Below, piece by piece: positions 3,024-29,700 of a stretch of DNA of 64,000 nucleotides. The notes beneath the pieces were generated by a model. The model was not told the DNA's origin and searched no databases. It saw only the letters and a program-made list of their open reading frames with translations. Source of the stretch: Calditrichia bacterium. GTDB lineage: Bacteria > Calditrichota > Calditrichia > RBG-13-44-9 > J075. How positions within the stretch are numbered: position 1 is the stretch's first letter; each line of letters opens with the position of its first letter. The position numbers and the translations under genes are program-made. The stretch lies in assembly GCA_028284905.1 (NCBI GenBank), contig JANQQU010000043.1, forward strand, positions 62,001 to 126,000, in the 5' to 3' direction.

Positions 3024-3106
3024 CGATGATTTGATGACGACTGGCTGCCGATAGAAAATCGGGATGCGGTGGCCGGATGCTGCTAAACGAAGTTGGAGAC
3101 GTATCA

Positions 3107-5011
3107 ATGCACGATTTTATATGGATCATACCCTTAATGCCGTTGCTCGGCGCGATTATCAACGGGCTTTTCGGTCACATCCTGAAAGGAAAAGCCGGTT
3201 TCATCGCCAGCGTTGCTGTGCTGATATCCTTTCTCTATACCGTCCGGGCATTCTTTATAGTTATGGACGGCACGATTATCCATAATGAGTTGTTTACCTG
3301 GATTCAGGCCGGAGACTTTACCGCTGGTGCCGCTGTTCTGGTTGATCAATTGTCGATTGTGATGATGCTGGTCGTAACCGGCGTTGGTTTTCTGATCCAT
3401 GTCTATTCGAATGGCTACATGCATGGCGATCGCACCGTCGGAAAGTTTTTCTCCTACCTCAATCTTTTCCTCTTTTCAATGTTGATGCTGGTTATGGGTG
3501 ATAACCTCCTGCTGCTCTACCTCGGCTGGGAAGGGGTTGGCGTCTGTTCTTATTTGCTGATTGGATATTTTTACGAGAAAGAATCCGCATCCAAAGCCGG
3601 CCTGAAGGCATTTCTGGCGAACAGGGTAGGGGACTTCGGTTTTGCCATTGGCATCTTCATCATTTTTTCCACCATCGGTACAATAACCTATGCCGGCATT
3701 GAAGGTCAGGTAGACAAGCTGATGGCCGCCGGCGTTGTTACCTCCGCTGCTTTGTTACTCTTCATGGGCGCCTGTGGTAAATCCGCCCAGTTCCCGCTGT
3801 ACATCTGGCTGCCCGATGCGATGGAAGGTCCCACGCCGGTGAGCGCACTGATCCATGCCGCAACGATGGTTACCGCCGGTGTTTACATGGTGGCTCGTCT
3901 TAGCTTCCTGTTTGTGCGCAGTGATGTCGCAATGATGGTTATCGTTATTATCGGTACCTTTACGGCACTGTTCGCGGCAACAATGGCGCTGGTGAATAAT
4001 GATATCAAACGCGTGCTCGCCTATTCTACTATTTCCCAATTGGGATACATGTTCATCGGGGTTGGTGTTGGGGCGTTTGCTGCCGGCGTTTTTCACCTGA
4101 TGACCCACGCCTTTTTTAAAGCGCTGCTCTTCCTCGGTGCCGGTGCAGTCATGCACTCTCTCGCCGATGAAACCGATATCCGGAAGATGGGAAATCTCTA
4201 TGGAAAAATAAAAATTACCGCGTTAACCTTTATTATGGCCTGGCTGGCAATTAGCGGCATCCCGCCATTTAGTGGTTTCTTTTCAAAAGATGAAATCCTC
4301 GCCCATGCATTCTTGTACAGTCCGCTGGTCTGGGTGTTTGGGGCGATTGGCGCTTTCCTGACCGCTTTCTACATGTCCCGCCTGGTATTTCTGACCTTCT
4401 TTGGTGAATCCCGGGTAGAGCCTGAAGTTGAAAAACATATCCACGAAAATCCCCCGGTAATGACCATTCCGCTGATGGTGCTGGCGGTATTATCAGTCGT
4501 CGGTGGTTTAATCGGCATTCCTGCCGGACTGGCATACCTCTGGGGTGGTGAAAATCATTTTGCCAACTTTCTCTCGCCGGTGTTTGCCAATGCCGCGTCT
4601 TACAGCGAGCCGCACCATATTTCCCATGCGCTGGAATATGGCTTGATGGCAGCATCCATCCTGATCGCACTGGGCGGCATCTATCTCGCTTACCTGATGT
4701 ATATCAAGAAGGCGATGGACCCGGATGCGATTGCCAATCGCTTCAGTGGGGCTTATAAGGTGCTTTCAAATAAATATTATGTGGATGAAGGCGTGGAAGC
4801 CGGCATTCTCAATCCGATTGTCCGATTCAGCCAATGGCTCTGGCATTTCGTCGATACCCGGGTGATCGATGGTTTCGTCAATTCGGCGGGAAAAATTGTT
4901 TGGCTGTTAAGCCTGATCGCACGCAGAGTACAAACCGGTTATGTGCAACATTATGCCAGTGTAATGGTGGTCGGTGTAATTTTGATTCTGGCATATTATA
5001 TCTTCCGCTAA
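3107..5011 (+). CDS. nuoL: NADH-quinone oxidoreductase subunit L
   Basis: NuoL is the distal proton-pumping antiporter subunit, with a long lateral helix at its C-terminus. The product of 634 residues has the usual size. Hallmarks include LLLLYLGWEGVGVCSYLLIG with the key membrane glutamate, PLYIWLPDAMEGPTPVSALI, and LVNNDIKRVLAYSTISQLGY. The start is taken at ATG 3107 because GGAG at 3095-3098 lies eight bases upstream and the next residues (MHDFIWIIPLMPLLGA) begin the first membrane helix. The earlier in-frame ATG at 3077 would add ten poorly conserved polar residues. Confidence 0.96.
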   Translation: MHDFIWIIPLMPLLGAIINGLFGHILKGKAGFIASVAVLISFLYTVRAFFIVMDGTIIHNELFTWIQAGDFTAGAAVLVDQLSIVMMLVVTGVGFLIHVYSNGYMHGDRTVGKFFSYLNLFLFSMLMLVMGDNLLLLYLGWEGVGVCSYLLIGYFYEKESASKAGLKAFLANRVGDFGFAIGIFIIFSTIGTITYAGIEGQVDKLMAAGVVTSAALLLFMGACGKSAQFPLYIWLPDAMEGPTPVSALIHAATMVTAGVYMVARLSFLFVRSDVAMMVIVIIGTFTALFAATMALVNNDIKRVLAYSTISQLGYMFIGVGVGAFAAGVFHLMTHAFFKALLFLGAGAVMHSLADETDIRKMGNLYGKIKITALTFIMAWLAISGIPPFSGFFSKDEILAHAFLYSPLVWVFGAIGAFLTAFYMSRLVFLTFFGESRVEPEVEKHIHENPPVMTIPLMVLAVLSVVGGLIGIPAGLAYLWGGENHFANFLSPVFANAASYSEPHHISHALEYGLMAASILIALGGIYLAYLMYIKKAMDPDAIANRFSGAYKVLSNKYYVDEGVEAGILNPIVRFSQWLWHFVDTRVIDGFVNSAGKIVWLLSLIARRVQTGYVQHYASVMVVGVILILAYYIFR

Positions 5012-5054
5012 GACGGTCGAAGGTAGTCAAGATAATAAATGGAGATTCTCATAG

Positions 5055-6596
5055 ATGGAAATGTCTAGTTTACTGAATTGGGTAACTTTTCTGCCGGCAC
5101 TTGGGGCGCTGGTGCTGCTGGCAATTCCCCGTACGGAAACGCAGCTGGTAAAATCCTGGGGACTACTGGTCTCGTTGATTACCTTTTTGGCATCGATCCC
5201 GCTTTTTATCATGTTTGACGGAAACAGTGCTGCAATGCAATTTACCACGCAGATGGATTGGATCCCCGCCATCGGCGCCTCTTACCATGTCGGCATCGAT
5301 GGGCTCAGCATTTTATTGTATGTCCTAACCACATTCATCATGCCCCTGGCGATTTTTGCTTCCTGGAATTCCATCACCGAGCGGGTAAAAGAATACATGA
5401 TCGCCATGCTGATCCTCGAATCGGCAATGCTCGGTGTGTTTATTTCATTAGATCTTATCCTCTTCTATCTTTTCTGGGAAGCGATGCTGATTCCGATGTA
5501 CCTCCTGATTGGTGTCTGGGGTGGTAAACGCCGGATTTATGCAGCCTTAAAATTCGTTGTCTATACGATGGTTGGTTCAGTGCTTATGCTCGTCGCCATC
5601 GTTTTTCTTTATATCCTCAATAATACCTACACCGGTGCTTACAGTTTTGACCTGATGGCGATCATGAATTTAAAAATATCCTTCAGCGCGCAAATCTGGC
5701 TCTTCCTCGCTTTTGCCCTCGCTTTCGCCATTAAGGTGCCGATGTTTCCCTTTCATACCTGGCTGCCGGATGCCCACGTGGAAGCGCCGACGGCCGGTTC
5801 CGTAATTCTGGCCGGAGTACTGTTGAAAATGGGCACTTACGGCCTCTTACGTTTTAACCTGACGCTTTTCCCGCAAGCCTGGGAGTATTTTACACCATTA
5901 TTTCTCTGGCTCGGCGTTATTGGTATTCTTTACGGCGCCTGGGTGGCGATGGTGCAAACCGATATTAAAAAGCTGGTTGCATATTCATCGGTCAGTCACC
6001 TCGGTTTTATTATTCTCGGTATGTTTGCCATGACGGTTACCAGTATGCAGGGGGGCATTCTGCAAATGGTCAATCATGGTGTTTCCAGCGGGGCGCTCTT
6101 TCTGGCGGTTGGGATGATCTACGAGCGGCGCCATACCCGGGAAATTAGTGAATTCGGCGGTGTTACCCGGGTTATGCCGGTGTTTAGCGCTTTCTTCCTG
6201 ATTATCTGTTTGTCATCCCTCGGTTTGCCCGGCACCAATGGGTTTGTCGGAGAATTCCTTATTCTGGTCGGTAGCTATGGCAATTACCCGGTATTTACGA
6301 TTGTCGCAACTGTCGGTATTATTTTCGCCGCGGCATATCTGCTTTGGATGTTCCGCCGGGTCATGTTCGGTCCATTGACGGAAAAGAATAAATCTCTCAC
6401 CGACCTCGATGGACGGGAAATCGCCATTATGATTCCGGTAATCCTGATGATTTTCTGGATTGGCGTTTATCCCTCTACTTTTACCGCAAAAACTGAAAAA
6501 ACCGTCGAAGCGCTGATAGAAAAAGCGAACAAGGCAAAAGCGGAAATGGTGATCGAAGGCCGGAAGCCGATACTGAGTGACTTCCTGGGAGAGTAA
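5055..6596 (+). CDS. nuoM: NADH-quinone oxidoreductase subunit M
   Basis: NuoM is the middle antiporter-like proton-pumping subunit of complex I. The 513-residue protein has about 14 membrane helices. Diagnostic segments are ILFYLFWEAMLIPMYLLIG, with the conserved membrane glutamate, FPFHTWLPDAHVEAPTAGS, and VQTDIKKLVAYSSVSHLGF. GGAG at 5041-5044 precedes the ATG at 5055; an alternative ATG two codons on cannot be excluded. It lies 43 bases after nuoL and 51 before nuoN. Confidence 0.97.
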   Translation: MEMSSLLNWVTFLPALGALVLLAIPRTETQLVKSWGLLVSLITFLASIPLFIMFDGNSAAMQFTTQMDWIPAIGASYHVGIDGLSILLYVLTTFIMPLAIFASWNSITERVKEYMIAMLILESAMLGVFISLDLILFYLFWEAMLIPMYLLIGVWGGKRRIYAALKFVVYTMVGSVLMLVAIVFLYILNNTYTGAYSFDLMAIMNLKISFSAQIWLFLAFALAFAIKVPMFPFHTWLPDAHVEAPTAGSVILAGVLLKMGTYGLLRFNLTLFPQAWEYFTPLFLWLGVIGILYGAWVAMVQTDIKKLVAYSSVSHLGFIILGMFAMTVTSMQGGILQMVNHGVSSGALFLAVGMIYERRHTREISEFGGVTRVMPVFSAFFLIICLSSLGLPGTNGFVGEFLILVGSYGNYPVFTIVATVGIIFAAAYLLWMFRRVMFGPLTEKNKSLTDLDGREIAIMIPVILMIFWIGVYPSTFTAKTEKTVEALIEKANKAKAEMVIEGRKPILSDFLGE

Positions 6597-6647
6597 GCGG
6601 AGTTCAGTTGCTGCCGCGATTGAAGAAAAGTTTGGAAAGGAAATACA

Positions 6648-8096
6648 GTGGTTAACATTAATATTGGCAATGCCGACTTTCTGGCAATCTTACCGATGAT
6701 CGTGCTGAGTTTTACCGGCATTTACCTGCTGGTGCAGGGGGTAATGGCTCCCAGAATGAAAAAATCGGTGCTCTCTTACCTGGGAATTGTCGGCATTCTC
6801 TTCTCGATTATCAGTAACTTCTATCTGCTTACAATTGTAACAGAAGGTGGACAGGCATTCTTTTACGGGATGATTTATCTCGATAAGCTGACAATTATCC
6901 TCAACTTTATCTTTTTGGTAACAGCCGCGCTTTGTCTCTTACTTGTCAATAGCTATTCAACACAGGAAGACATTGAATTCATCGAATTTACACCATTGGT
7001 TATTTTTGCGACCGTCGGTATGATGTTGATGGGCAGCTCCTATAGCCTGATGAGCCTTTTTCTGGGATTGGAAACAATGTCGATTGCACTGTATGCCCTG
7101 GCCGGTTTTCGCAAGTTTAACCGCCGTTCACTGGAGGCTGCTTTAAAATACTTTTTGCTCGGCGCTTTCGCCACCGGGTTTCTCCTTTACGGTATCGCCC
7201 TGCTGTATGGCGCTGCCGGTTCTACCAGTCTGGAAGCGATCGCCAATTTTCTCTCTCAAAATAGCAACCCCGGTATGATGGCTACATTTGGCATTGCGCT
7301 GATGATCATCGGTTTTGCTTTCAAAGTAGCCCTGGTGCCGTTCCATATGTGGACGCCAGACGTTTACCAGGGCGCGCCGATGCCGGTAACGGCATTTATG
7401 GCTGTTGGCGCGAAGGCTGCCGGTTTTGCGGCAATCTTGCGCGTAATTATTGGCGCTGCCGGTGCTGCCGAACCGATTTGGAGTGATTTGCTCTGGTGGT
7501 TAACGGTGATTACCATGACAGGCGGTAACCTGATTGCGTTGGTGCAGAGTGACATCAAGCGGATGCTAGCATATTCCAGTATCGCCCATGCCGGATATAT
7601 TATGATTGGTATTGTCGCTGCCAATGATGTTACCGTCTCGGCAGTTCTATTCTACCTGATCGTCTACATGTTTATGAACATCGGCGCATTTGCTGTTGCC
7701 GGCATTGTTAGTGGTAAAAATGAACGATTTGTCGATATCAAGCACTATGCAGGTTTAGGCAAAGCCCAGCCCTTGCTGGCGTTGGTGATGACGGTTTGCA
7801 TGTTCTCTCTGGCAGGATTCCCGCCAACCGGTGGGTTTATGGGGAAACTTTACATTTTTAAAGCCGCATATCAGTCCGGCTTCCAGACCCTGGTAATTAT
7901 TGGTGCTTTGAACTCCTTGTTGTCTGTTTATTACTACATTCGCGTTGTTGTCGCGATGTATTTTCAGGAAGCGGCGGAAGAGCAAGAGAGTGGTTCAATT
8001 TTACCGGAAGTGGGTCTTGTTCTCCTGATCGCACTGATCGGAATTTTCTATATGGGAATTTTTCCCGGGAACACTTTGACCTGGTTATACTATTAA
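6648..8096 (+). CDS. nuoN: NADH-quinone oxidoreductase subunit N
   Basis: NuoN is the third antiporter-like subunit and the last gene of the visible operon. The 482-residue product has the family signatures SLFLGLETMSIALYALAGF with its conserved glutamate, VPFHMWTPDVYQGAPMPVT, and VQSDIKRMLAYSSIAHAGY. The start codon is GTG at 6648, preceded by GGAAAGG (about 6633-6639). The next genes are unrelated, and a 462-base gap follows, so the operon probably ends here. Confidence 0.96.
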   Translation: MVNINIGNADFLAILPMIVLSFTGIYLLVQGVMAPRMKKSVLSYLGIVGILFSIISNFYLLTIVTEGGQAFFYGMIYLDKLTIILNFIFLVTAALCLLLVNSYSTQEDIEFIEFTPLVIFATVGMMLMGSSYSLMSLFLGLETMSIALYALAGFRKFNRRSLEAALKYFLLGAFATGFLLYGIALLYGAAGSTSLEAIANFLSQNSNPGMMATFGIALMIIGFAFKVALVPFHMWTPDVYQGAPMPVTAFMAVGAKAAGFAAILRVIIGAAGAAEPIWSDLLWWLTVITMTGGNLIALVQSDIKRMLAYSSIAHAGYIMIGIVAANDVTVSAVLFYLIVYMFMNIGAFAVAGIVSGKNERFVDIKHYAGLGKAQPLLALVMTVCMFSLAGFPPTGGFMGKLYIFKAAYQSGFQTLVIIGALNSLLSVYYYIRVVVAMYFQEAAEEQESGSILPEVGLVLLIALIGIFYMGIFPGNTLTWLYY

Positions 8097-8558: not shown

Positions 8559-9632
8559 ATGAAATCTTTTCTGAAAACCTTGACAATCACAATGCTGATG
8601 CTGACCAGCTTGTCTCCGATTTTCGCACAAGGCGAAGCAACTGCACTGTTCTTGTTGATTAACCCAGGCGCCCGCCAAAGTGGTATGGGGGAAGCCGGTG
8701 TGGCTACTGCAGCTGATGCAAATGCCATCTACTGGAATCCGGCTGGCCTTGCCTTCCAGTATAATGATCCGGAAGTCGACAGCAAGGGTGAAGCAACATT
8801 GATGCACGTGAACTGGCTGCCTCAGTTCAACTTCAGTGACCTTTACTATGATTATGCTGCAGCCCGTTACCATATGGATGATATTGGCACCGTTGGTTTT
8901 GCACTCCAGTTCATCAATTATGGTGACAATACCCAGACCAGTGACGATGGTACCGTTCTTGGAGAATTCTCCAGTAACGAAGTCGCCGTCTCCGGTAGCT
9001 ATGCGGTAAAAGCGCAGGAGAATCTCGGTATTGGTGTAAATCTGAAATACGTTCTCTCCAGACTCTCACCTGTTCAGGTTGGTACCGAGCAAAGTAAGGG
9101 TGTGGGCAGCACTTTTGCCGTAGACCTTGGTGTGCTTTACAAACCGGGTTTTATTAACCGCCTCAGCCTTGGTGCAAATCTTTCCAATGTTGGCCCGAAA
9201 ATTACCTATATCGACAAAGAGCAAGCCGATCCTATTCCGATGAATATTCGCCTCGGTTTGGCATATAAGATTCTCGATTCGGAGTTCAATAAGCTGACTT
9301 TCGCATATGACGTCAATCGTCTGATGGTACCGCGTGATGACGAAAAACGCCGCGATAGTTTTCTCTCCTATTTTGCCACAGCCTGGGGAGATGGGGATCA
9401 GTTTAATCGCCTCGCCCATGCACTGGGATTTGAATACTGGTACACCGATCTGATTGCCCTTCGTGCCGGTTATTTCTATGAAGATCCGAATTATGGCGAT
9501 CGCCGTTTCTGGACATTCGGTGGCGGTTTCCGGATTTCCTTCGTTGGCGTAGACTTCAGCTACATCCTCGCTTCCGTCGATGAGCATCCGCTTTCCGACA
9601 CGATGCGTTTCTCTTTGATGGCCAGATTCTAA
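8559..9632 (+). CDS. PorV/PorQ-family outer membrane protein
   Basis: The 357-residue product starts with a clear signal peptide ending in SLSPIFAQ. The mature N-terminus (GARQSGMGEAGVATAADANAIYWNPAGLAF) is the signature of the PorV/PorQ (UPF0164-like) family. The rest alternates polar and hydrophobic residues as in a FadL-like beta-barrel and ends in ARF, a typical outer-membrane aromatic C-terminus. PorV helps recognise and shuttle T9SS cargo to the attachment complex; whether this paralogue does so is inference. A strong AGGAGG (8543-8548) precedes the ATG, so expression may be high. The leader has an attenuator-like hairpin, and a terminator follows. Confidence 0.85.
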   Translation: MKSFLKTLTITMLMLTSLSPIFAQGEATALFLLINPGARQSGMGEAGVATAADANAIYWNPAGLAFQYNDPEVDSKGEATLMHVNWLPQFNFSDLYYDYAAARYHMDDIGTVGFALQFINYGDNTQTSDDGTVLGEFSSNEVAVSGSYAVKAQENLGIGVNLKYVLSRLSPVQVGTEQSKGVGSTFAVDLGVLYKPGFINRLSLGANLSNVGPKITYIDKEQADPIPMNIRLGLAYKILDSEFNKLTFAYDVNRLMVPRDDEKRRDSFLSYFATAWGDGDQFNRLAHALGFEYWYTDLIALRAGYFYEDPNYGDRRFWTFGGGFRISFVGVDFSYILASVDEHPLSDTMRFSLMARF

Positions 9633-9690: not shown

Positions 9691-9723
9691 ATGGAATGCG
9701 AATTCGAGGTAATGGTTAATACT

Positions 9724-12700
9724 ATGAAGATCACAGCAGTATGGTGGTTCGCCGGTCTTTTTGGAATGATGTTTTTTTCACCGCTAATTGCCACCCCCTT
9801 TGACACTCCCGACACCTTAAAAGTTTTAGCGATCCGCGTAGAATTCCAGGCGGATGATGACGACAATACAACCGGTAATGGCAAATTCGATTTGAGTCAA
9901 AATACCGAATCATTTCGTATTGATCCTCCGCCACATAATCGCAGCTATTTTGAAGATCATCTGAAGTTTGCCCGGAATTATTTCTACCGGAGCAGCCGTG
10001 GTGCGCTGGAAATGACCTATGATGTTTTCCCACGGGAACAAAACAGTGCTTATCAGCTGGATGCAGAGATGAGCAACTACAATCCCAACACGTCCGTTGC
10101 CGATATCGATGTGGGGATTGCCCGCCTGCTAAGAGATGCCCTGGAGAAAGCAGATGCGGATCCGGCGATCGATTTTTCTCAATATGAATCGGTGATTGTT
10201 TTCCATGCAGGCGTCGGCCGGGATGTCGATTTCGGCTTCGATGAAACGCCGCAGGATATCCCCTCGCTGTTTATTACCAGCCAATTCCTTTCCCGTACTT
10301 TGGGTGTTGATGGTATTGCCGTGGAAGGCGGCAGTCAGATTATCCGTAATGGCATTATTCTCCCCGAAACAGAATCCCAGGAGGGTATTCAACTCGGCTT
10401 GAACGGTATTCTGGTTTCCAATATCGGATCCCAATTGGGTTTTCTGGATCTCTTTAGTCCGGAAACCCGGCGCAGCGGTGTTGGTCGATTCGCGCTGATG
10501 GATGCCGGCCTTTTTAACGGGGATGGTTTGATTCCCTCATTGCCGATGGCCTGGACGCGAATCGATGCCGGTTGGGAAACACCGATTCGTATTCAACAGG
10601 CACAGGATGAGCAGGTAACCATTCATGGCGTGCTTACCGAAGAAAATGAGCGCATTTACAAAGTTCCGATCAGTGAAAAGGAATATTTTCTGCTGGAGAA
10701 TCGGGTGGCTGGTGAAGTAAGCATTGACAGTATCCAGGCAGTACTTTCTGATCAGCGTGGGGAACTGGTATCGATGCGGGAAATTCTCGAAACTAATTTT
10801 GCCGATCAGGTTGTCTTTAGCGATAGCACCGGTGTGTTGGTTGATGTCTTGAATCCGGACATCGGTCTGCCCGGCGGCGGTGTGCTTATCTGGCACATCG
10901 ATGAACGGGTAATTGAAGCAAATCGCGCGGAAAACCGTATTAATGCAGATCCTGATTTCCGGGGTGTTGACCTCGAAGAAGCTGACGGTTCCCAGGATAT
11001 CGGGGCCGAATTTGATTTCCTCAGCGGTGGGGCCGGTTCGGAATTAGGCACGTCTCTGGACCTCTGGTTTGAAGATAACTCCGCACCGCTTTTTGCTGAA
11101 GAAACGCCGGTAAATGAATTTTCGATCTCAAGCATTCCAGGCAGCCAGAGTAACTATAATCGCGCGAATAGCCACATTACCATTAAAAACTTTTCAAAGC
11201 GCGGCACATCGATGACGTTTACGATCGATGTGAATTTCTTTCAGCCGAATTTCCCTGCTTCGGTATCGATGGCAAGATATGGGCAAGTCCAATCGTTGAA
11301 AGCAGCTGATCTCGACGGAAATGGGGCAGAAGAATTATTGCTCACAACCAGCAGCAACAAATTGCTGGTTGTCGATGAAGATCGTCGTAGTGACTGGGGG
11401 AGCGATAGTCTGGAAGTGTTACAGCTACCCGGCGGTTTGGATTTGCAACTGCCACCAGCGATTGGCAATGAACCAAATGCGAATAATATGTTTGTGGTTA
11501 CAGTTGCCGCGAGTGGAGAAGTGTTCGGCTACCGTTTCAATCGCACAACCTCGCAGCTGGATAGTCTTTTCTTCTTTTCTACCGGTAAAATCATAACCAC
11601 CCATCCGGTGATTAATGAAGATCTGCAATCTGTTTATTGGGGAACGGAAAATGGCGTCAGCCAACTGGCGTTTCATGATAATGCCTGGGAGATCAGCGAG
11701 TTAGCCGGAGTTAGCGAAAGTGTGCGCGCAATTCAATTCGCAGGAGATAATAGCCTGCTTGCGGTTGGCAGCAGCGGGCAAGTCTATTCAAATGGCACTG
11801 CCCAGGGGCAAATTCCAACAGATGCCTATTCTCCGGCCGGAAGCAATGCTCTTACCGTAAACGCACAGGGCCAATTTTCTGTGCTTGGCGACCCGAGTGT
11901 TTCCTCTCCGGAGGAAGGCATTCACACTGTAGATGCCCCGTTTATTGCTGTTACTTTTCCGCGTAGTGATGGTCAGGCAGAGGATCAGTTCTCATATATC
12001 ACCAACGGCAACAATCAGATCTATGCGTTTAACTCTAACCTGACCCTCCGTTCCGAATTTCCGGTGAAAGTTTATCCGAAAATTCAGGAGAACGATCTCT
12101 TTCTCAGCCCCTTAAGCGGGGTATTCCCATCTCAGGACAATGTAAATGATGCAGGTATCGTCGTTTGCGATCCGGCCGGTATGCTGGTAGGATATGACGT
12201 TGACGGCAGAATGCTGCCGGATTTTCCCCTGGCCGCGGGCGACTCCGTTATCGCTTCACCTGCCCTGCTGGATATCGATGGCGATGGTGACCAGGAACTG
12301 GCTTGCGTCACGATATCCGGTGGTTTACTGGTATGGGATTTTCCCTCCGGCGACCCGAATAACAATTTTGCCCTGTTCAGCTGGTCACAGCAATATGGGA
12401 ACCCCGGAAACATTAACCGCCTGAGTACCAGCCCCGGAAATACGCCGGCCAGTGGTGGTGATGCACTTCTGGCAGAAGCATATAACTGGCCGAATCCCAA
12501 TAGCGACAACTATACATTTATCCGGTACCGCTTGACTGATAATGCAGAAGTTGCTATTAAGATATTTGATATCGCCGGAGATTTAGTCCAGGAATTCAGT
12601 GGTCCGGGCGTTGGCAACAGTGATAATGAAGTGCGCTGGGATCTATCCAATGTGCAAAGCGGCGTTTACATCGGCCGGATTCAGGCGGATGTCAGCGGCC

Positions 12701-12741
12701 GGAATGAAGTGAAGATAATCAAAATTGCAGTTGTAAAATAA
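9724..12741 (+). CDS. Secreted M6-type metalloprotease homologue lacking the zinc motif, with T9SS domain
   Basis: The product has about 1005 residues. A signal peptide (MKITAVWWFAGLFGMMFFSPLIA) favours ATG 9724; ATGs at 9691 and 9712 are also in frame. The first half follows the M6 (immune-inhibitor-A-like) pattern, including FALMDAGLFNGDG and AWTRIDAGWETP. Where M6 enzymes have HELGHxxGxxD, this protein reads NIGSQLGFLD (N233 to D242): both zinc histidines and the catalytic glutamate are gone. It is therefore probably not a protease. The second half has calcium-loop-like DxDGNG and DIDGDGDQE repeats of FG-GAP propellers, and the last 90 residues (AYNWPNPNSDNYTFIRYRL onward, ending VKIIKIAVVK) are a T9SS/FlgD-like sorting domain. 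Surface location is inferred. Confidence 0.85.
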   Translation: MKITAVWWFAGLFGMMFFSPLIATPFDTPDTLKVLAIRVEFQADDDDNTTGNGKFDLSQNTESFRIDPPPHNRSYFEDHLKFARNYFYRSSRGALEMTYDVFPREQNSAYQLDAEMSNYNPNTSVADIDVGIARLLRDALEKADADPAIDFSQYESVIVFHAGVGRDVDFGFDETPQDIPSLFITSQFLSRTLGVDGIAVEGGSQIIRNGIILPETESQEGIQLGLNGILVSNIGSQLGFLDLFSPETRRSGVGRFALMDAGLFNGDGLIPSLPMAWTRIDAGWETPIRIQQAQDEQVTIHGVLTEENERIYKVPISEKEYFLLENRVAGEVSIDSIQAVLSDQRGELVSMREILETNFADQVVFSDSTGVLVDVLNPDIGLPGGGVLIWHIDERVIEANRAENRINADPDFRGVDLEEADGSQDIGAEFDFLSGGAGSELGTSLDLWFEDNSAPLFAEETPVNEFSISSIPGSQSNYNRANSHITIKNFSKRGTSMTFTIDVNFFQPNFPASVSMARYGQVQSLKAADLDGNGAEELLLTTSSNKLLVVDEDRRSDWGSDSLEVLQLPGGLDLQLPPAIGNEPNANNMFVVTVAASGEVFGYRFNRTTSQLDSLFFFSTGKIITTHPVINEDLQSVYWGTENGVSQLAFHDNAWEISELAGVSESVRAIQFAGDNSLLAVGSSGQVYSNGTAQGQIPTDAYSPAGSNALTVNAQGQFSVLGDPSVSSPEEGIHTVDAPFIAVTFPRSDGQAEDQFSYITNGNNQIYAFNSNLTLRSEFPVKVYPKIQENDLFLSPLSGVFPSQDNVNDAGIVVCDPAGMLVGYDVDGRMLPDFPLAAGDSVIASPALLDIDGDGDQELACVTISGGLLVWDFPSGDPNNNFALFSWSQQYGNPGNINRLSTSPGNTPASGGDALLAEAYNWPNPNSDNYTFIRYRLTDNAEVAIKIFDIAGDLVQEFSGPGVGNSDNEVRWDLSNVQSGVYIGRIQADVSGRNEVKIIKIAVVK

Positions 12742-12797: not shown

Positions 12798-15700
12798 ATG
12801 ATGATGAATCGACTATACCTGTTGTTATTGCTGATTGGCCTTTTTAGTTCAAGCGCCTGGTCGCAGCTGTATATTTACGAGCCGAACCACCCGGAATTGA
12901 AGTGGGAAACCATTGAAACGGATAACTTTCTGGTTCATTATCACCAGGGAACCCGCAGAACGGCCAATATTGTTGCAGATATTGCCGAGGATATTCACCC
13001 GGCAGTTATCGACTTATACGATTACACGCCTTCAGCAAAAGTAGAGTTCTTTATCGTCGATACCCGCGATTATTCCAATGGCGGCGCTTATTTTTATGAC
13101 AATAAAATCGAGATATGGACGGAAAGCCTTGATTATGTACTGCGCGGCACTCACAATTGGTTGTGGGATGTCATTACCCATGAATATATTCATATAATTT
13201 CCTTGCAAAAATCCCTGAAATTTGGGCAAAAAATTCCTGCAAACTGGTTTCAGGCTTTTGGCTATGAGCGAGAGCGCCGGAAGGATGTGGTGCGCGGTTT
13301 CCCGAATGTACTGGTTTCCTACCCGATATCCGGCGTTGTTGTGCCGGTATGGTTTGCCGAAGGTGTGGCCCAGTATCAATCCAATGCAAAACGGTTTGAC
13401 TACCGCGATTCCCACCGGGAAATGATTCTGCGAGACCGTATTCTCACCGACAATTTTTTGACGCTTTCGGAAATGAATGTTTTCGGGAAAAATAGTATTG
13501 GTAACGAATCCTCTTACAACCAGGGATTTTCATTTTCGAAATTCCTGGCGGAAAAGTATGGCGAAAAAGTGTTGTCGGAGCTTGCCGGTCAGGCATCGAA
13601 TCTCCTGACGCTGACGTTCAATGGCGTCATTAAAAAAGTGACCGGCGAAGATGCGAACGTACTCTATAATGAGTGGAAAGCGCAGCTTACTGAAGAATAC
13701 ACAACCCAGCTTAAAACAGTTCAGCAGAACCTGATTAGCGGGGAAAGCTTTGTCGGTAAAGGCATTGGCAATATGCATCCGCAGCTTTCGCCGGACGGAA
13801 AGAAGGTCGCTTACCTGGCCAGCGGGAAATCCTCCTCACTGGGGTCAAATGTGCTGGTTGTCCAGGATCTGGATACAGATAAGAAAAAGAACATTACTGC
13901 CCGAATTACCGGTTCCTACAGCTGGTCCCCGGATGGCAAATATCTCGCATATTCAAAAGTATGGGAGATTCCGAAAACTCAATCTTTGTTTAACGATCTT
14001 TATATCTACGACCTCGCAAAAGAAAAAGAGTATCGTATTTCGGAGGCTTTTCGCGCCCGTCATCCCGATTGGTCCAACGATGGCAGCAAGCTGACTTTTG
14101 TGGTGCAAAGCGATGGTTTAGCCAATCTTTACACTATGGATATTGATGTTGAAATGGCGCGCAAGGAACTCTCCGCGACGAAAACAACCTATTATGATCT
14201 TGATAAACACCTGTTCCAGGATGAAAAGCCGAGTTCCAAGACAGAAGAACGATTGTCCTTCCGGAAAGTGCGTTACAATGGCGAGAACCTTCGTCAGTTG
14301 ACTCACTTTGTCGATGGCCGGCAAATCTATCATCCCCGCTGGGCGCCGGATGACAGCTATATCATTTTCGATACCTCTACAGATTTTGGTCGGGATATCG
14401 CCAAAGTCCCTGCGAATGGCGGCGAGATGACCTTCGTCGTTAAAACAAAAACGGATGAGCGCTATCCCGATTTCCATCCGAAAACCGGCGAGTTGATTTA
14501 CGCCAGCGATGAAACCGGAATCTATAACGTCTATTTACAAAACCTGGAAAGCGGTGAAAAGCAGGCGCTGACGAACGTTATTGGTGGCGCATTCATGCCG
14601 ACAATCTCTGCTGAAAACGACCTTTTCTTTGCCCTTTATCGCAATCAGGGGTATAAGATTCATCGCATCTCTCAGGCAGCAACGACAGATAATGAGAATC
14701 TCGCTTACATCGACAATTATCAATCGCGGGTGCCAACGCTGGAAAATGCGGATCAATCGGTGACCGATTTCCGGGAAGCACGTCCGTATCGCAATCGATT
14801 TTCTCCGGTAACTTTTATGCCGAGGGTTTGGCTGGACTACGGGACACTGAAACTGGGCTCCTATGTTTATACAACGGAGCTCTTGAACAAGATGTCCTTC
14901 TTTAGTGGCGTCGCTGCAAACGTTAAAGGCGATTACGATCTTTTTGCCATCGCTGATTATGATTTTCTGAAGCATAAGTTCTTTATCGAAATCTTTAATA
15001 CCACCGCGAATATTAATGATACGATTTTCATTCCGGAGTCCCGCGAACAGGATGTTGAACTGGACATTAACTTTAATCTGACGCAGGCCGGTGCCGGTTT
15101 CGAAACAACCGCTTTGCCCTGGAATCTTAGCAAGCTGTTTTATACCCGCCTGGAATATCTCTTCAGTTTTTACCGGGCGAAAATCGGGAACTTCGTTTAT
15201 TTTGACCAGGTGCGGGAAGAAGTGCTGGAGTCACCACCCTTCCGGTATACTTACCTGCGTGGCCATGCCATTAGCCTCCTGTTACGGCATGAAAATGTTA
15301 AGCGAGACCTCGATCGGGCGATTAACCCCAGCGATGGCCGATACATCTCTTTTAAGGCGAAACGGGAATGGAATAAATTCCTCGATGATTTTGCCACAGA
15401 CCGGGTGATTGGGCTGGAAGAATTCAAGAATTATAATTACATGAGTTATGAAGCGAATTGGGAAGAATATTTCTCACTGCCGCTGGCCGATCAGCATACC
15501 TTGACGCTGCGCGCTCAGGGCGCCTTCGTTGATACGGAAGTGGATAGCTTTTTCCATTATTTTGGTGGTGGCCTGGTAGGGATGAAGGGCTATCCCTTTT
15601 ACAGTATCGAAGGGCGTAAACTGCTGATCGGCTCTGCGACCTATCGTTTTCCGCTATTCCGTAATATCAACAAAACATTGCTGAATATGCATCTGCACAA

Positions 15701-15965
15701 ACTTTATCTCGGCGGCTTCTTTCAATACGGTAATGCCTGGTCGGAGGATGGTATTGAGTGGGATGATTTCCTTTCCGATGTTGGTGTGCAGCTCAGGTTG
15801 GATACTTTCTCCTGGAATTTCTTCCCAACGCGAATATTCTTCGAAGCGGCCTATCCATTGAAGGAACATTTTAATGCCGGGACCAGTTATCCGAAAGAAT
15901 GGAAATTCTATTTTGGCGTCCTTTTCGACTTCGATTTACGTTTGGAGAAAAGGCGTTTCTTTTAA
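12798..15965 (+). CDS. Peptidase MA - TolB propeller - Omp85 barrel fusion protein
   Basis: The 1055-residue protein combines three parts. After a signal peptide (cleavage near AWSQ, residue 23) comes a gluzincin-type peptidase MA domain with HEYIH at 128-132 and the downstream glutamate in VWFAEGVAQYQ (E188). Residues about 320-620 hold TolB-like propeller repeats (LSPDGKKVAYLASG, WSPDGKYLAYSK, WAPDDSYIIFDTS, HPKTGELIYASDETG). From about 680 to the C-terminal KRRFF it looks like a BamA/Omp85-type surface antigen barrel (YFGGGLVGMKGYPFYSIEGRKLLIGSATYRFPLF, the usual last strands). The likely location is the outer membrane with the enzyme facing the periplasm. Substrate unknown. It lies 56 bases after the M6-like gene and 40 before the next, so probably within an operon. 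Confidence 0.85.
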   Translation: MMMNRLYLLLLLIGLFSSSAWSQLYIYEPNHPELKWETIETDNFLVHYHQGTRRTANIVADIAEDIHPAVIDLYDYTPSAKVEFFIVDTRDYSNGGAYFYDNKIEIWTESLDYVLRGTHNWLWDVITHEYIHIISLQKSLKFGQKIPANWFQAFGYERERRKDVVRGFPNVLVSYPISGVVVPVWFAEGVAQYQSNAKRFDYRDSHREMILRDRILTDNFLTLSEMNVFGKNSIGNESSYNQGFSFSKFLAEKYGEKVLSELAGQASNLLTLTFNGVIKKVTGEDANVLYNEWKAQLTEEYTTQLKTVQQNLISGESFVGKGIGNMHPQLSPDGKKVAYLASGKSSSLGSNVLVVQDLDTDKKKNITARITGSYSWSPDGKYLAYSKVWEIPKTQSLFNDLYIYDLAKEKEYRISEAFRARHPDWSNDGSKLTFVVQSDGLANLYTMDIDVEMARKELSATKTTYYDLDKHLFQDEKPSSKTEERLSFRKVRYNGENLRQLTHFVDGRQIYHPRWAPDDSYIIFDTSTDFGRDIAKVPANGGEMTFVVKTKTDERYPDFHPKTGELIYASDETGIYNVYLQNLESGEKQALTNVIGGAFMPTISAENDLFFALYRNQGYKIHRISQAATTDNENLAYIDNYQSRVPTLENADQSVTDFREARPYRNRFSPVTFMPRVWLDYGTLKLGSYVYTTELLNKMSFFSGVAANVKGDYDLFAIADYDFLKHKFFIEIFNTTANINDTIFIPESREQDVELDINFNLTQAGAGFETTALPWNLSKLFYTRLEYLFSFYRAKIGNFVYFDQVREEVLESPPFRYTYLRGHAISLLLRHENVKRDLDRAINPSDGRYISFKAKREWNKFLDDFATDRVIGLEEFKNYNYMSYEANWEEYFSLPLADQHTLTLRAQGAFVDTEVDSFFHYFGGGLVGMKGYPFYSIEGRKLLIGSATYRFPLFRNINKTLLNMHLHKLYLGGFFQYGNAWSEDGIEWDDFLSDVGVQLRLDTFSWNFFPTRIFFEAAYPLKEHFNAGTSYPKEWKFYFGVLFDFDLRLEKRRFF

Positions 15966-16005: not shown

Positions 16006-16920
16006 ATGAACAAATTTTTGGTTTTTCTTGTCGTTTTTTCTTTGTCAAGTTTCCTCTCCGCGAATGAACCACTGCCGGAGATTACCGACAATATGCTCCT
16101 GAATCGTCTGCAAATGCATCAAACAGTGCGGGCGAATGTGGAAAATGAACAGCAGGATTTTGAGACCACAACTAGTGGTAAAAAGTCCGTCGGAAGAGCA
16201 GTGCTTTTTTCCGCAATTCTCCCCGGTAGCGGACAGTTATATGCTAAATCCTACATCAAGGCGGCAACTTTTCTGGCCATCGAAGCGGTTGCCTGGTCGG
16301 TGAACATCACTTACAATAACCAGGGCGATGAAAAAGATGCGGAATTCAAAGTTTATGCGGAAGAAAACTGGAGTGAGCAGCGCTATTGGTCCTATGTTTA
16401 TCATCGGTTGAATGGGCGCACTGAGGCCTACCCGGAATTCCCCCATGGACAATTCGATAGCGATATTCAGCTGGATAATGCCGGTCGCCCGATTATTCAA
16501 AATTGGGAAGCTGCGGAACAGACGCTGGATCCGTTTGCGTCGACTGAATATTTGAGCGGATTTTCCCATACACTGCCGGATACCCGCACTCAGCAATATT
16601 ATGAAATGATTGGAAAATATCCGTTACAGTTCGGTAACGCCTGGGCCGATGCCAATTTTGAAGCAACTTACCAGGATTTTGGCCAGGGAAACATTACCGA
16701 GCAGAATGAGGCCTATGCTATCATGCGTGATGATGCCAATAAGCTCTATGACCGTGCTGCATATGGTTCGATGATTGCGCTGCTCAACCACTTGTTTTCC
16801 GCAATTGATGCCGGTTTTACGACCCGGCGGTATAATAATCGTGTGTTATCGCTGAGCTATCAGCAAAAGTGGTATAGTGAGCAATATGTTGACATGTTTG
16901 GCGTAACGATGTCCTTCTAA
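16006..16920 (+). CDS. DUF5683-like envelope protein
   Basis: The 304-residue product has an N-terminal signal peptide (MNKFLVFLVVFSLSSFLSA). Residues 62-90 read SVGRAVLFSAILPGSGQLYAK, the hydrophobic PGSGQxY motif of DUF5683-type proteins common in Bacteroidota and relatives, and are followed by a second hydrophobic stretch (FLAIEAVAWSVN). The remainder is acidic and aromatic with no motif I recognise. Function is unknown. It lies downstream of the Omp85 fusion and directly before a shorter paralogue, suggesting a joint role in the envelope. Confidence 0.7.
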   Translation: MNKFLVFLVVFSLSSFLSANEPLPEITDNMLLNRLQMHQTVRANVENEQQDFETTTSGKKSVGRAVLFSAILPGSGQLYAKSYIKAATFLAIEAVAWSVNITYNNQGDEKDAEFKVYAEENWSEQRYWSYVYHRLNGRTEAYPEFPHGQFDSDIQLDNAGRPIIQNWEAAEQTLDPFASTEYLSGFSHTLPDTRTQQYYEMIGKYPLQFGNAWADANFEATYQDFGQGNITEQNEAYAIMRDDANKLYDRAAYGSMIALLNHLFSAIDAGFTTRRYNNRVLSLSYQQKWYSEQYVDMFGVTMSF

Positions 16921-16979
16921 TTCGTTGGTTGTTCCAGTTTCGATCTGCAGAAGATTTTAATCAAGACGAGAAATATCAG

Positions 16980-17780
16980 ATGACTATGAGACAAGTTGTT
17001 GCAAATCTTAATTCCATACTGTTTTTCCTGCTCTGCATGAGCATAAGTAGCGCTTATGGGCAGGCAGATAAAAACAGTGACATTACACCTCAGTTTTCCA
17101 GAGCTGCATTAAGCACCTCATTCGATGAAGCCGCTGAAGGATTTTCCGCTAATCTCTACCAGGATAGCACAACGATGCCGGAGGCTTCCGGCGGGAGCAC
17201 CAGTGCGGGGAATATCTTCCTTTCCCTGTTAGTGCCTGGCCTGGGAGAGTATGCTGCGGGCAATAAAAAGGCTGCAAAATTCTTTTTTGGCACAGAAATT
17301 TTATTGTGGTCAGGGTTTTATGCAAGTCAAACGTATTTAAATGTACTACAGGATGATCTTGAATCCTATGCTGCGCGCCACGCTGGCGTTATAGATGCGG
17401 ATGGTAAAGGTGATCAATACTGGATTGACATCGGATTATCGCCGGATATTTACACGTTCAATGCGAATAAATTACTGGAACGTGATCTTGATGGCCGTTA
17501 CGAGGAAAATAGAGATAATGAATGGGTTTGGGATAGTGAAGATAATCAGATCACTTATGCGCAAAAGCGTATTGACCGGGTGGACTGGAAGAAAAATGCG
17601 AATTTGATCGTCGGGGGATTGGTGCTGAATCGCATTATTAGTGCCATCGATGTGATTCGCATTGTCCGCAAAAACCGTAACCTGGAGAATCAGGCCCGGC
17701 AATCTTATTTGAATTTACGGTATACCGAACTCGCAAACGAGGGCAAGGCTTTACGCATGAACTTGACCGTTCTATTCTAA
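16980..17780 (+). CDS. DUF5683-like envelope protein, second copy
   Basis: The 266-residue product is related to the preceding one. It has a signal peptide (LNSILFFLLCMSISSAYGQ) and the same hydrophobic motif, here NIFLSLLVPGLGEYAAGNKKA, followed by a second hydrophobic segment and an acidic, tyrosine-rich tail. ATG 16980 is chosen; the frame stays open upstream to a TTG at 16929 but those residues are polar and spoil the signal peptide, and ATG 16986 is equally possible. Function is unknown. The pair precede a predicted barrel gene. Confidence 0.65.
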   Translation: MTMRQVVANLNSILFFLLCMSISSAYGQADKNSDITPQFSRAALSTSFDEAAEGFSANLYQDSTTMPEASGGSTSAGNIFLSLLVPGLGEYAAGNKKAAKFFFGTEILLWSGFYASQTYLNVLQDDLESYAARHAGVIDADGKGDQYWIDIGLSPDIYTFNANKLLERDLDGRYEENRDNEWVWDSEDNQITYAQKRIDRVDWKKNANLIVGGLVLNRIISAIDVIRIVRKNRNLENQARQSYLNLRYTELANEGKALRMNLTVLF

Positions 17781-26764: not shown

Positions 26765-29700
26765 ATGCTGGACAATTTCGTAAAATCCTACCCCAAACCG
26801 GTAAATGGGGCTGCATTTAAGCATACCGCCATGGTACGGCATAACGGAACAGTCATTGCGTTCGCCGTCAACGAAGATCGAAGAATTTTTTATTCTGTGT
26901 TGGATCTCAACGATCAAAGCACCAAAGGGCCGCTCGATGTCAATTATTGGCAGAACAATCCACAAACATTAACCTTCCCGAACGAAATTGTCACGGTAGG
27001 GGAGGGGCTTTTTGATCCGCTGCAAATGCCGGTTTACAAGAAAGGGAGTAGTGAACCGGAAGCCGCTGGCACGCGGGTGCGGGAGAATGAAAAAGATCAA
27101 TTCCGTTCCACCACCGCCAGTCTTTCCGATAATACCGCTTTTCACGTTATGTCCGACAATAAGTTTGTATACCTCTTTCGCCAATCAGTCGAAAATAGTG
27201 ATGTCGATCTGGCAGCGGGTGTGTTGCTGGTCGATCGCTTCATACTCTCCGGAACAATGTTGTTAAACAAACGCGAAGTGCGTTACCAGCGCAGCCGGAA
27301 CAAATACCAGCCGCAGAGCCGGAAAGACAGCCTCGGTGCGAAGGATATGGAGAAAATTCCATTTTTCGAACCGACACAAAAGCTATCCTTTATCCGCAAC
27401 CTGGTGGATGGCCGCTTTACATCGCTGCTCCTGCCGACCCAAATCGCGAATCTGCAACGTTGGCAAATATTCGCCCATAATGTAAAAACAGGCATGATTG
27501 ATTCGTTCAACATCGAACGCGCTGCCGATGGTCTGTTCAATTTAAAAGGGACACAGCCTTATACTTGTCCCGATCATCCGGAAGTATACAGTCTTAAAGA
27601 CGGCGCCTGTCCGGAGCCGGCGAAAGCTGATGCTACGCAGAACTGCCCCTATGCGCTGATCCCGGTGCTCAGTAAGGAAGGATATGCGGAGTGGGCGCTA
27701 ACATTTGATGGCAGTGATGACAATATCACCCTGGAAAAACCCCTGGATTTTGAGCACGCCAGCTATCAAACAATTGAGTTTTGGCTGCAGGTGGAAGATC
27801 TAACCAACCAGCAAACACTGCTCTCGGTTGAAAATCAGGAAGCCGGCAGTATTTTTATTGATACCGATGGCACTCTCAAATATCTATATCTGGATGAGAA
27901 TGGCGCTACGCAACAGTTTAGTAGTGTTACTGCATTAGAAGCGGGATTCTGGCATCATGTTGTTCTGGTGCGGGACGATGAAGAAAATATGCTCAATTGG
28001 TATATTGATGGCAACCAGGCCAATGATCTCGTCGATATTACCGGCGCTGCCACCGCCAACAGCGGTTTGATTTTCGGTAGTGGCAATTGGGGATTTTTTA
28101 AAGGCAAGATTGACGAAATTCGTATTTGGCAGCGCCCGCGCTATCAGGATGAGCTGCTCACCGATATGCGTCATCGCCTGATCGGGCACGAACCGGGATT
28201 GCTGGTATACTGGCGTTTCGATGAAAGCCGGGGAACGGTTCTCAACGATCAAACTGAAAATGCCTATCGTGGTGTGCTGAATGGCGGCGTTGAATGGGTT
28301 GCCTCGGATGCACCGGTCGGCGATCATCCCGGCGTGCGACGCACCAGTTTCCGTTTTGATGGACGGACGGTGGTATCCGGCATGAGTGCCCTGCTCTATT
28401 ATTATCAGCAACAAAATAAAGGGGGATATGATGCCGAGGACAAACCTCTGAAGACCAATGCCCGGGTAATGTTTGCCGCAGCCACTCATCCGGAAACAGG
28501 AGGCGTGGAGGGTGTCAATCATATTGCCATTCTCGATTTCGGCCTTTCCCGTAGTGGTAAACTTGGGCAGATACCGGACAATATCCTCTTGCAGGATATG
28601 GAAGTTTCTGATGAAGAGCGCCGTTCTTCCCGGGAGATTCAGGAAGAAATTACTTCCCTGGAAAGCCGTGAGCCAGAATTAATTCAACTGATTAACGAAC
28701 TTAATGGAAATCTCAATATTCCTGTGGATACTGACTTTATCGACGCTGCTTATAACTTCCCGGGTGATGAAAACACTGCTACCGCCATCGTTTTCAAAAA
28801 AGAAAATATCACCCTGAATTGGCGTGGTGAGAGCATAGAATATCTGGAAGATGAAAGCACGCTTCCCCAAAAATTGGCAATGGCTAACTGGACATTCCAA
28901 TATGAAGAAGAAGCTGTAAATGTCACATTTACGAAAACGGTTGATGGCGCTTCTGTTAGTAGTGTGGAAATTGTTGATGATACCGCATTAACCCCGGAAC
29001 AAATTGTGGGCACCACGGAATGGCTGGCTGCCTGGTGTGGCTGGGAAAGCACTGCTGGCGAAAGCGAGTCTGCTTTTGTAGTCAATGATAAATACTATTA
29101 TTTCAAAGGCGAGCAGTATCGGGTGTTTGACCGGGAAACCCGAACGTTTAGCGATGTAACAAATATCGATGCTGGCGAATTTCCCGGTTTGTGGACGGAT
29201 GGCATTGATGCCGCATTTCGTGAAAATGATGGCCGGATAATTTTCCTGAAAGGGGCACATTACAAAAGCTATATCCTGGAAGATGAGGTTTATGTTATCG
29301 ATGGGTTCGATACAATACACTCGATTTATCCCGGCGTGCCCTTCCTGTTGGTGCATAGCGAATACCAGGGGAATCCTCCGGTGTTGGCAGATGTCGAAGC
29401 TGAACTGGCTAGTCTGCGCAGCCGATTGTCCGCACTCCGTGTAGAGTTGGCTGCTGCCCAACGCCGGGAGCTGGAAGAGCTGGAAGTCGAAGTGGAAATG
29501 TTTATGATCCACACCGATCCATTTGGCCTCAGCACAATGGGAGGGTTGCTGACCTTTGCCTGGACGGACAATACCCCGCAGCTGTTTGATAGTGCCAATG
29601 GAAAACTTGCCCTTTATTTTCAGGGAGCAAATGAGCAATTCTATGTCACCTATTACGACACAATGACCGGGACAGCTATCTTTTCCGTGCCCGCCGGGAA

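Follow-up and report, generated by a model that had tools for sequence, protein, structure and literature searches.

Omp85 barrels joined to further domains have been described in two subfamilies. In WD40-Omp85 proteins a TolB/WD40-like propeller is joined to the barrel, an arrangement that the original survey likens to a fusion of BamA and BamB (Heinz and Lithgow 2014, PMC4104836). The same survey describes Metallo-Omp85 proteins, in which an N-terminal domain termed a metalloprotease (PF00149) is attached to an Omp85 barrel, and for which periplasmic quality control was proposed. In PlpD, another Omp85 protein, the enzyme domain stays in the periplasm (PMC11116518).

Here we describe a gene in a 64,000-nucleotide stretch of a Calditrichia genome (the window) whose product joins a zinc peptidase of the gluzincin type, a TolB-like propeller and an Omp85 barrel. 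Its active site is conserved, it lies in an operon with genes of the type IX secretion system (T9SS), and it co-occurs with a neighbouring M6-like protein (M6i) that has lost its own active site; in related operons that lack the gene the M6 protein is intact, with two exceptions. We suggest that catalysis may have moved from the M6 protein to its neighbour.

Zinc peptidase, propeller and Omp85 barrel in one chain

An earlier note on this DNA had read the gene as an intact HEYIH/E188 gluzincin site fused through PD40 repeats to a BamA-like barrel, and Pfam matches, a structural model and fold searches all agree with that arrangement in a single chain (Table 1). The translated reading frame matched the Pfam families Peptidase_MA_2 (E 1.6e-8), PD40 (1.1e-10) and DPPIV_N, and an AlphaFold model of the full chain, made from an input of 51 aligned sequences, had a pLDDT of 88 and a pTM of 0.88. 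A Foldseek search with this model returned TolB first, followed by BamA of F. johnsoniae and Fusobacterium.

Table 1. Positions of the peptidase gene, its domains and motifs, and its operon neighbours in the window
Feature	Coordinates	Strand	Evidence or remark
porV, T9SS outer-membrane shuttle protein	8559..9632	+	NF033710, 252 bits (cut-off 250)
M6i, T9SS-dependent M6-like inactivated metalloprotease; type A sorting domain; NIGSQ replacing HExxH	9691..12741	+	NF052323, E 2.8e-189
Whole gene: gluzincin, TolB-like propeller, Omp85 barrel; 1055 aa, ATG start	12798..15965	+	ORF, Pfam, AlphaFold model
Probable Sec signal peptide, residues ~1-22, without lipobox cysteine	12798..12863	+	MMMNRLYLLLLLIGLFSSSAWSQ; low-confidence N-terminus of the model
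Gluzincin (Peptidase MA clan) domain, residues ~30-312	12885..13733	+	Best conserved portion of the chain
HEYIH zinc/catalytic motif, residues 128-132	13179..13193	+	H128, E129, H132 invariant
Third zinc ligand E188, within WFAEG	13359..13361	+	Invariant
TolB/PD40-like beta-propeller, residues ~313-650; variable loop ~450-500	13734..14747	+	
16-strand Omp85 barrel, residues ~661-1048, immediately C-terminal to the propeller	14778..15941	+	
Omp85 loop-6 region, strands 11/12, GG..G.KGYPF, residues ~923-934	15564..15599	+	TamA alignment
DUF5683 gene, downstream in the conserved cluster	16006..16920	+	PF18935
Second DUF5683-like gene, in the cluster of many relatives	16929..17780	+	Homologue in 48/110 loci

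In fold, the isolated protease domain matched the gluzincins M61, M1, M30 and M9, and it has both the HExxH motif and the downstream Glu ligand that mark gluzincins of the Peptidase MA clan; no M48 match was present among the Pfam families listed for the protein. We looked for loss of the zinc ligands and found none, as H128, E129, H132 and E188 are kept in 97 of 97 aligned rows and in all 42 further Bacteroidota orthologues, two sets with at least one genome in common. Mean column identity was 61% in the protease domain versus 35% in the barrel, and by this measure the strongest constraint falls on the peptidase domain. The protein is thus predicted, from its sequence, to be an active zinc peptidase; a literature search returned no biochemistry for any member of the family.

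The propeller is best described as TolB-like and not as TolB, as it matches the NCBIfam TolB model (5.7e-29) with 101 bits, under the equivalog cut-off of 343. It runs straight into the barrel, with no POTRA domain seen in the model; at least one such domain is usual, and not universal, in the Omp85 superfamily. By itself the barrel of the window protein reached no Omp85 model in a profile search. We nevertheless assign it to Omp85 because 14 of 51 relatives match PF01103 (best 2.2e-13), the family profile matches TamA across the GG...RGY loop-6 motif (E 0.0023), the model contains 16 strands at high confidence, and the barrel fold matches (9n2d, 9ccg) include BamA of Flavobacterium johnsoniae and Fusobacterium. 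Together these results rule out a C-terminal barrel of another type.

Loop 6, which is conserved and lies between strands 11 and 12 of the model, reads KGYPF in the window protein and RGYPF in most relatives, corresponding to the (V/I)RG(F/Y) motif of Omp85 proteins. Column 930 is R or K and column 932 is Y in 43/43 rows, and the G of the motif is S in 18 of them. The position of this loop, together with the strand number, fits the topology common among Omp85 proteins, in which the N-terminus is periplasmic.

Orthologues were found in Calditrichota, KSB1, Ignavibacteria, Neomarinimicrobiota, Latescibacterota, Zixibacteria, Rhodothermales and Balneolaceae, and within the class to which the window belongs all relatives searched yielded a strong orthologue or fragments of it. 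The nearest named relative of the window protein is encoded by a Calditrichota genome (~60% identity). The window's genome also carries diverged paralogues, one of which, on another contig (L002:1024-4113), has Peptidase_MA_2, PD40 and Omp85 all above the Pfam cut-off. The three-part architecture is therefore not unique to the gene at 12798-15965 and does not by itself set that gene apart.

A T9SS operon with reciprocal active sites

As a single-copy orthologue, the gene keeps its fixed place in a T9SS operon across many phyla of the FCB group. The conserved order is porU (where present), porV, M6i, the peptidase gene and DUF5683. Among loci with room to score each position, M6i is immediately upstream in 94 of 98, PorV is upstream in 55 of 58, and DUF5683 follows within 700 bases in 87 of 90. 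porU adjoins porV in 22 loci, and also in the fully read operons L129 and L130; in the window's genome it lies outside the operon, on the opposite strand and ~21 kb upstream. The translocon protein SprA was found in 25/25 tested genomes that carry the gene, which, taken with its place among T9SS genes, marks it as a putative T9SS accessory.

The two adjoining DUF5683-like proteins (16006-17780), constant downstream neighbours, share a PGxGQ/E-like motif, and three successive Proton_antipo_M subunits of complex I or Mrp type (3077-8096) lie directly upstream of porV. Tandem M43 metallopeptidases (37701-40307 and 40368-42644) both end in T9SS sorting domains, one of them below the Pfam cut-off, and are possible candidate substrates of the operon's system. 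A 2811-aa reading frame (26765-35200) with at least five Laminin_G_3 (concanavalin A-like) domains is likely to encode a giant surface protein.

Across 198 Bacteroidota genomes, which are related to one another and are not independent samples, the peptidase gene and M6i occurred in exactly the same 78, all SprA-positive; given this relatedness, the Fisher value computed for the co-occurrence is not to be taken as a probability. One further genome (G087) was left out of this count, as its weak match (1.3e-22, part of the chain) was taken as a paralogue. At least seven of the 78 genomes keep both genes even though these lie on different contigs or at a great distance from each other on the same contig. 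SprA was present in 154 of the 198 genomes, and about half of these (76/154) have neither gene; thus, the peptidase is not a core T9SS component. The earlier note had proposed a self-contained outer-membrane device for quality control or processing. The tie to porV and often porU, and the invariable co-occurrence with a dead M6 in this sample, tell against the self-contained part of that proposal; the protein may still serve in quality control or processing at the outer membrane.

We also considered whether either protein replaces a known component. As a replacement for PorZ, neither M6i nor the Omp85 peptidase fits, as 72 of the 78 pair-carrying genomes also have PorZ and only six lack a match. 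The peptidase is similarly rejected as a stand-in for the sortase PorU, as 73 of the 78 also have PorU, with no match in the other five. Five genomes (G145, G165, G191, G202 and G254) have SprA, M6i and the peptidase but lack matches to both PorU and PorZ, apparently representing a T9SS without the known sortase. The pair is thus not tied solely to sortase-dependent anchoring.

The state of the M6 active site follows the presence of the peptidase gene. In an earlier set, none of 61 M6i proteins encoded beside the gene contained HExxHxxG. Two SprA-positive genomes without the gene (G042 and G048) have the same operon with an M6 protein bearing an intact HEFGHQLG, and nothing lies between M6 and DUF5683; a diverged peptidase copy hidden downstream of M6 was ruled out, as the family profile finds none and the next gene is DUF5683. 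We therefore searched 386 relatives of G042, took 80 of the matches with their flanks and scored the loci with a porV or porU link for the state of M6 and the presence of the peptidase gene. A dead M6 accompanied the peptidase gene at 22 porU/porV-linked loci, which in part overlap the set of 61 (for example L209/L036 and L208/L081), and a live M6 accompanied it at none. Without the gene, M6 was live (HExxH) at 31 of 33 loci with room and dead at two; six further linked loci had no room downstream to score. The two exceptions, L217 and L278, are porV-linked, and absence of the peptidase gene was judged there downstream of M6 only.

Two operons with a live M6 and no Omp85 peptidase also encode long PorV homologues, of 820 aa (L175:3741-6200) and 893 aa (L176:3766-6444). 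A long insertion interrupts PorV in both, and the one in L175 contains Reg_prop propeller repeats.

In a maximum-likelihood tree of M6 proteins, built with active-site columns removed and rooted at the midpoint, two changes are needed for each trait, the M6 active site and the presence of the peptidase gene, which rules out many independent switches as the source of the pattern. M6 inactivation and arrival of the peptidase gene fall on the same branch. The reciprocal pattern thus amounts in essence to a single ancient switch, with two exceptions, that has been held since then across many families. We take the live M6 as the ancestral state because an enzyme becomes a pseudo-enzyme more easily than the reverse, which the midpoint-rooted tree does not prove.

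A proposed catalytic hand-over and its alternatives

We think it probable, if only narrowly, that an outer-membrane-anchored metallopeptidase dedicated to the T9SS took over catalysis and that M6 was kept as a non-catalytic partner. After export to the periplasm by way of its signal peptide, the chain would insert its Omp85-type barrel into the outer membrane, with the zinc peptidase and propeller most likely on the periplasmic face, given the usual Omp85 topology and the parallel with PlpD; the propeller is probably a docking site for a substrate or a partner protein. M6i, with its type A sorting domain, is expected to be exported through SprA and to bind PorV. An ancestral M6 protease, belonging to the surface-attachment module of the T9SS, may have lost catalysis when the outer-membrane gluzincin joined the operon. 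The gluzincin would then do the cutting, by which T9SS cargo or components are processed or cleared, and M6i would remain as a scaffold or regulator. The Omp85 peptidase would be the blade, and M6i the non-catalytic part, of a single T9SS processing unit in which the two may partner physically.

A broader version of this proposal is offered tentatively, as we give it somewhat less than even weight. It holds that, in the ancestor of a large share of T9SS bacteria, a secreted M6 protease ceded its catalytic role to the Omp85 gluzincin encoded next to it, that the dead M6 was retained as a surface scaffold, and that a live membrane peptidase and a fixed pseudo-peptidase together make up a previously undescribed T9SS processing module that works across the outer membrane. 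The weak point of a hand-over is the conflict of compartments. The M6 export signal suggests action outside the cell, whereas the peptidase is predicted to be periplasmic; a direct replacement therefore needs explanation, and the change would not be a simple swap.

The chief rival is outer-membrane quality control of the kind performed by BepA, in which a periplasmic protease would degrade stalled or misfolded SprA, PorV or T9SS cargo at its own barrel, with M6i as a client or sensor. There is a precedent, as BepA, a periplasmic zinc peptidase, either promotes LptD maturation or degrades LptD on the BAM complex (PMC8423444). The joining of peptidase, propeller and Omp85 barrel in one chain and the presence of SprA in all genomes carrying the gene are consistent with such a role, and the predicted topology fits it with no added assumptions. 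However, quality control leaves unexplained why M6 is dead exactly where the peptidase gene is present and why the gene and M6i co-occur so strictly, and other SprA-positive genomes manage without the gene. We consider this explanation doubtful, while still giving it real weight.

Shared descent could also produce the pattern, if both features were gained by chance on one branch and the operon was conserved by hitch-hiking, with no functional tie between the two proteins. The essentially single switch in the M6 tree is what this would predict. However, the pair is co-retained in 78/78 genomes, including those in which the genes are not adjacent, and the active site and operon have been maintained across many phyla, making vertical inheritance alone improbable. 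Least probable of all, and in our judgement very unlikely, is that the barrel exports or displays its own peptidase and propeller at the surface in direct replacement of M6: this would remove the compartment conflict and, as M6 has a T9SS sorting domain, make the exchange like for like, but the 16 strands and the loop 6 between strands 11 and 12 fit an Omp85 topology with a periplasmic N-terminus, and PlpD, formerly thought to export its enzyme domain, keeps it in the periplasm (PMC11116518).

If catalysis did pass from M6 to the Omp85 peptidase, a proteolytic step would be added to the T9SS and a new job to the Omp85 barrel, and the pair would be a clear example from nature of a protease turning into a pseudo-protease while its neighbour took on the chemistry. 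Research on the T9SS has relied on a small number of model Bacteroidota (P. gingivalis, F. johnsoniae and C. hutchinsonii). The outer-membrane peptidase and its pseudo-peptidase partner, of which we found no description in the literature searched, are present in about half of the T9SS-bearing Bacteroidota sampled and in many genomes from other phyla of the FCB group. Balneolaceae and Rhodothermales, which both carry the gene according to our orthologue search, have cultured members, which would make tests feasible.

Comparison with known systems

The pair shares with the PorU-PorV-PorQ-PorZ attachment module an operon that contains porV and often porU. The literature searched mentions neither an Omp85 protein nor a zinc peptidase as part of that module, and a search for porU/porV operons with a metalloprotease and an Omp85 protein found no description. 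Unlike the attachment module, the peptidase gene persists in genomes without PorU and PorZ matches. The constant neighbour and co-occurring partner of the gene, the NF052323 M6i protein, is a secreted pseudo-peptidase and not a barrel.

BepA resembles the window protein as an HExxH zinc peptidase that works beside an Omp85 protein, but it is a separate protein of another peptidase family (M48) and has no T9SS operon. It is soluble and has a TPR domain. PlpD and other patatin-like Omp85 proteins are similar in tethering a periplasmic enzyme domain to an Omp85 barrel; they differ in that the enzyme is lipolytic, a POTRA domain is present, and there is no propeller and no T9SS link.

The PF00149 domain of Metallo-Omp85 proteins, a calcineurin-like phosphoesterase domain that has no HExxH motif, had no match in the window protein in the Pfam search. 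Metallo-Omp85 proteins, for which the survey mentions no propeller, carry a different enzyme from the gluzincin of the window. WD40-Omp85 proteins are closer, as a propeller is joined to an Omp85 barrel in both. The main text of the survey (PMC4104836), as far as it was accessible, mentions neither a peptidase ahead of the propeller nor a T9SS link, and some members may share the full architecture. Our literature search found no T9SS link for either subfamily.

Enzyme-bearing Omp85 proteins are already known, and the T9SS-linked protein belongs among them. It is also already known that M6i is an inactivated metalloprotease dependent on the T9SS, as NCBI names it so (NF052323). What is new, as far as our searches of the literature go, is its live partner anchored by an Omp85 barrel, the strict co-occurrence of the two, and the reciprocal states of their active sites.
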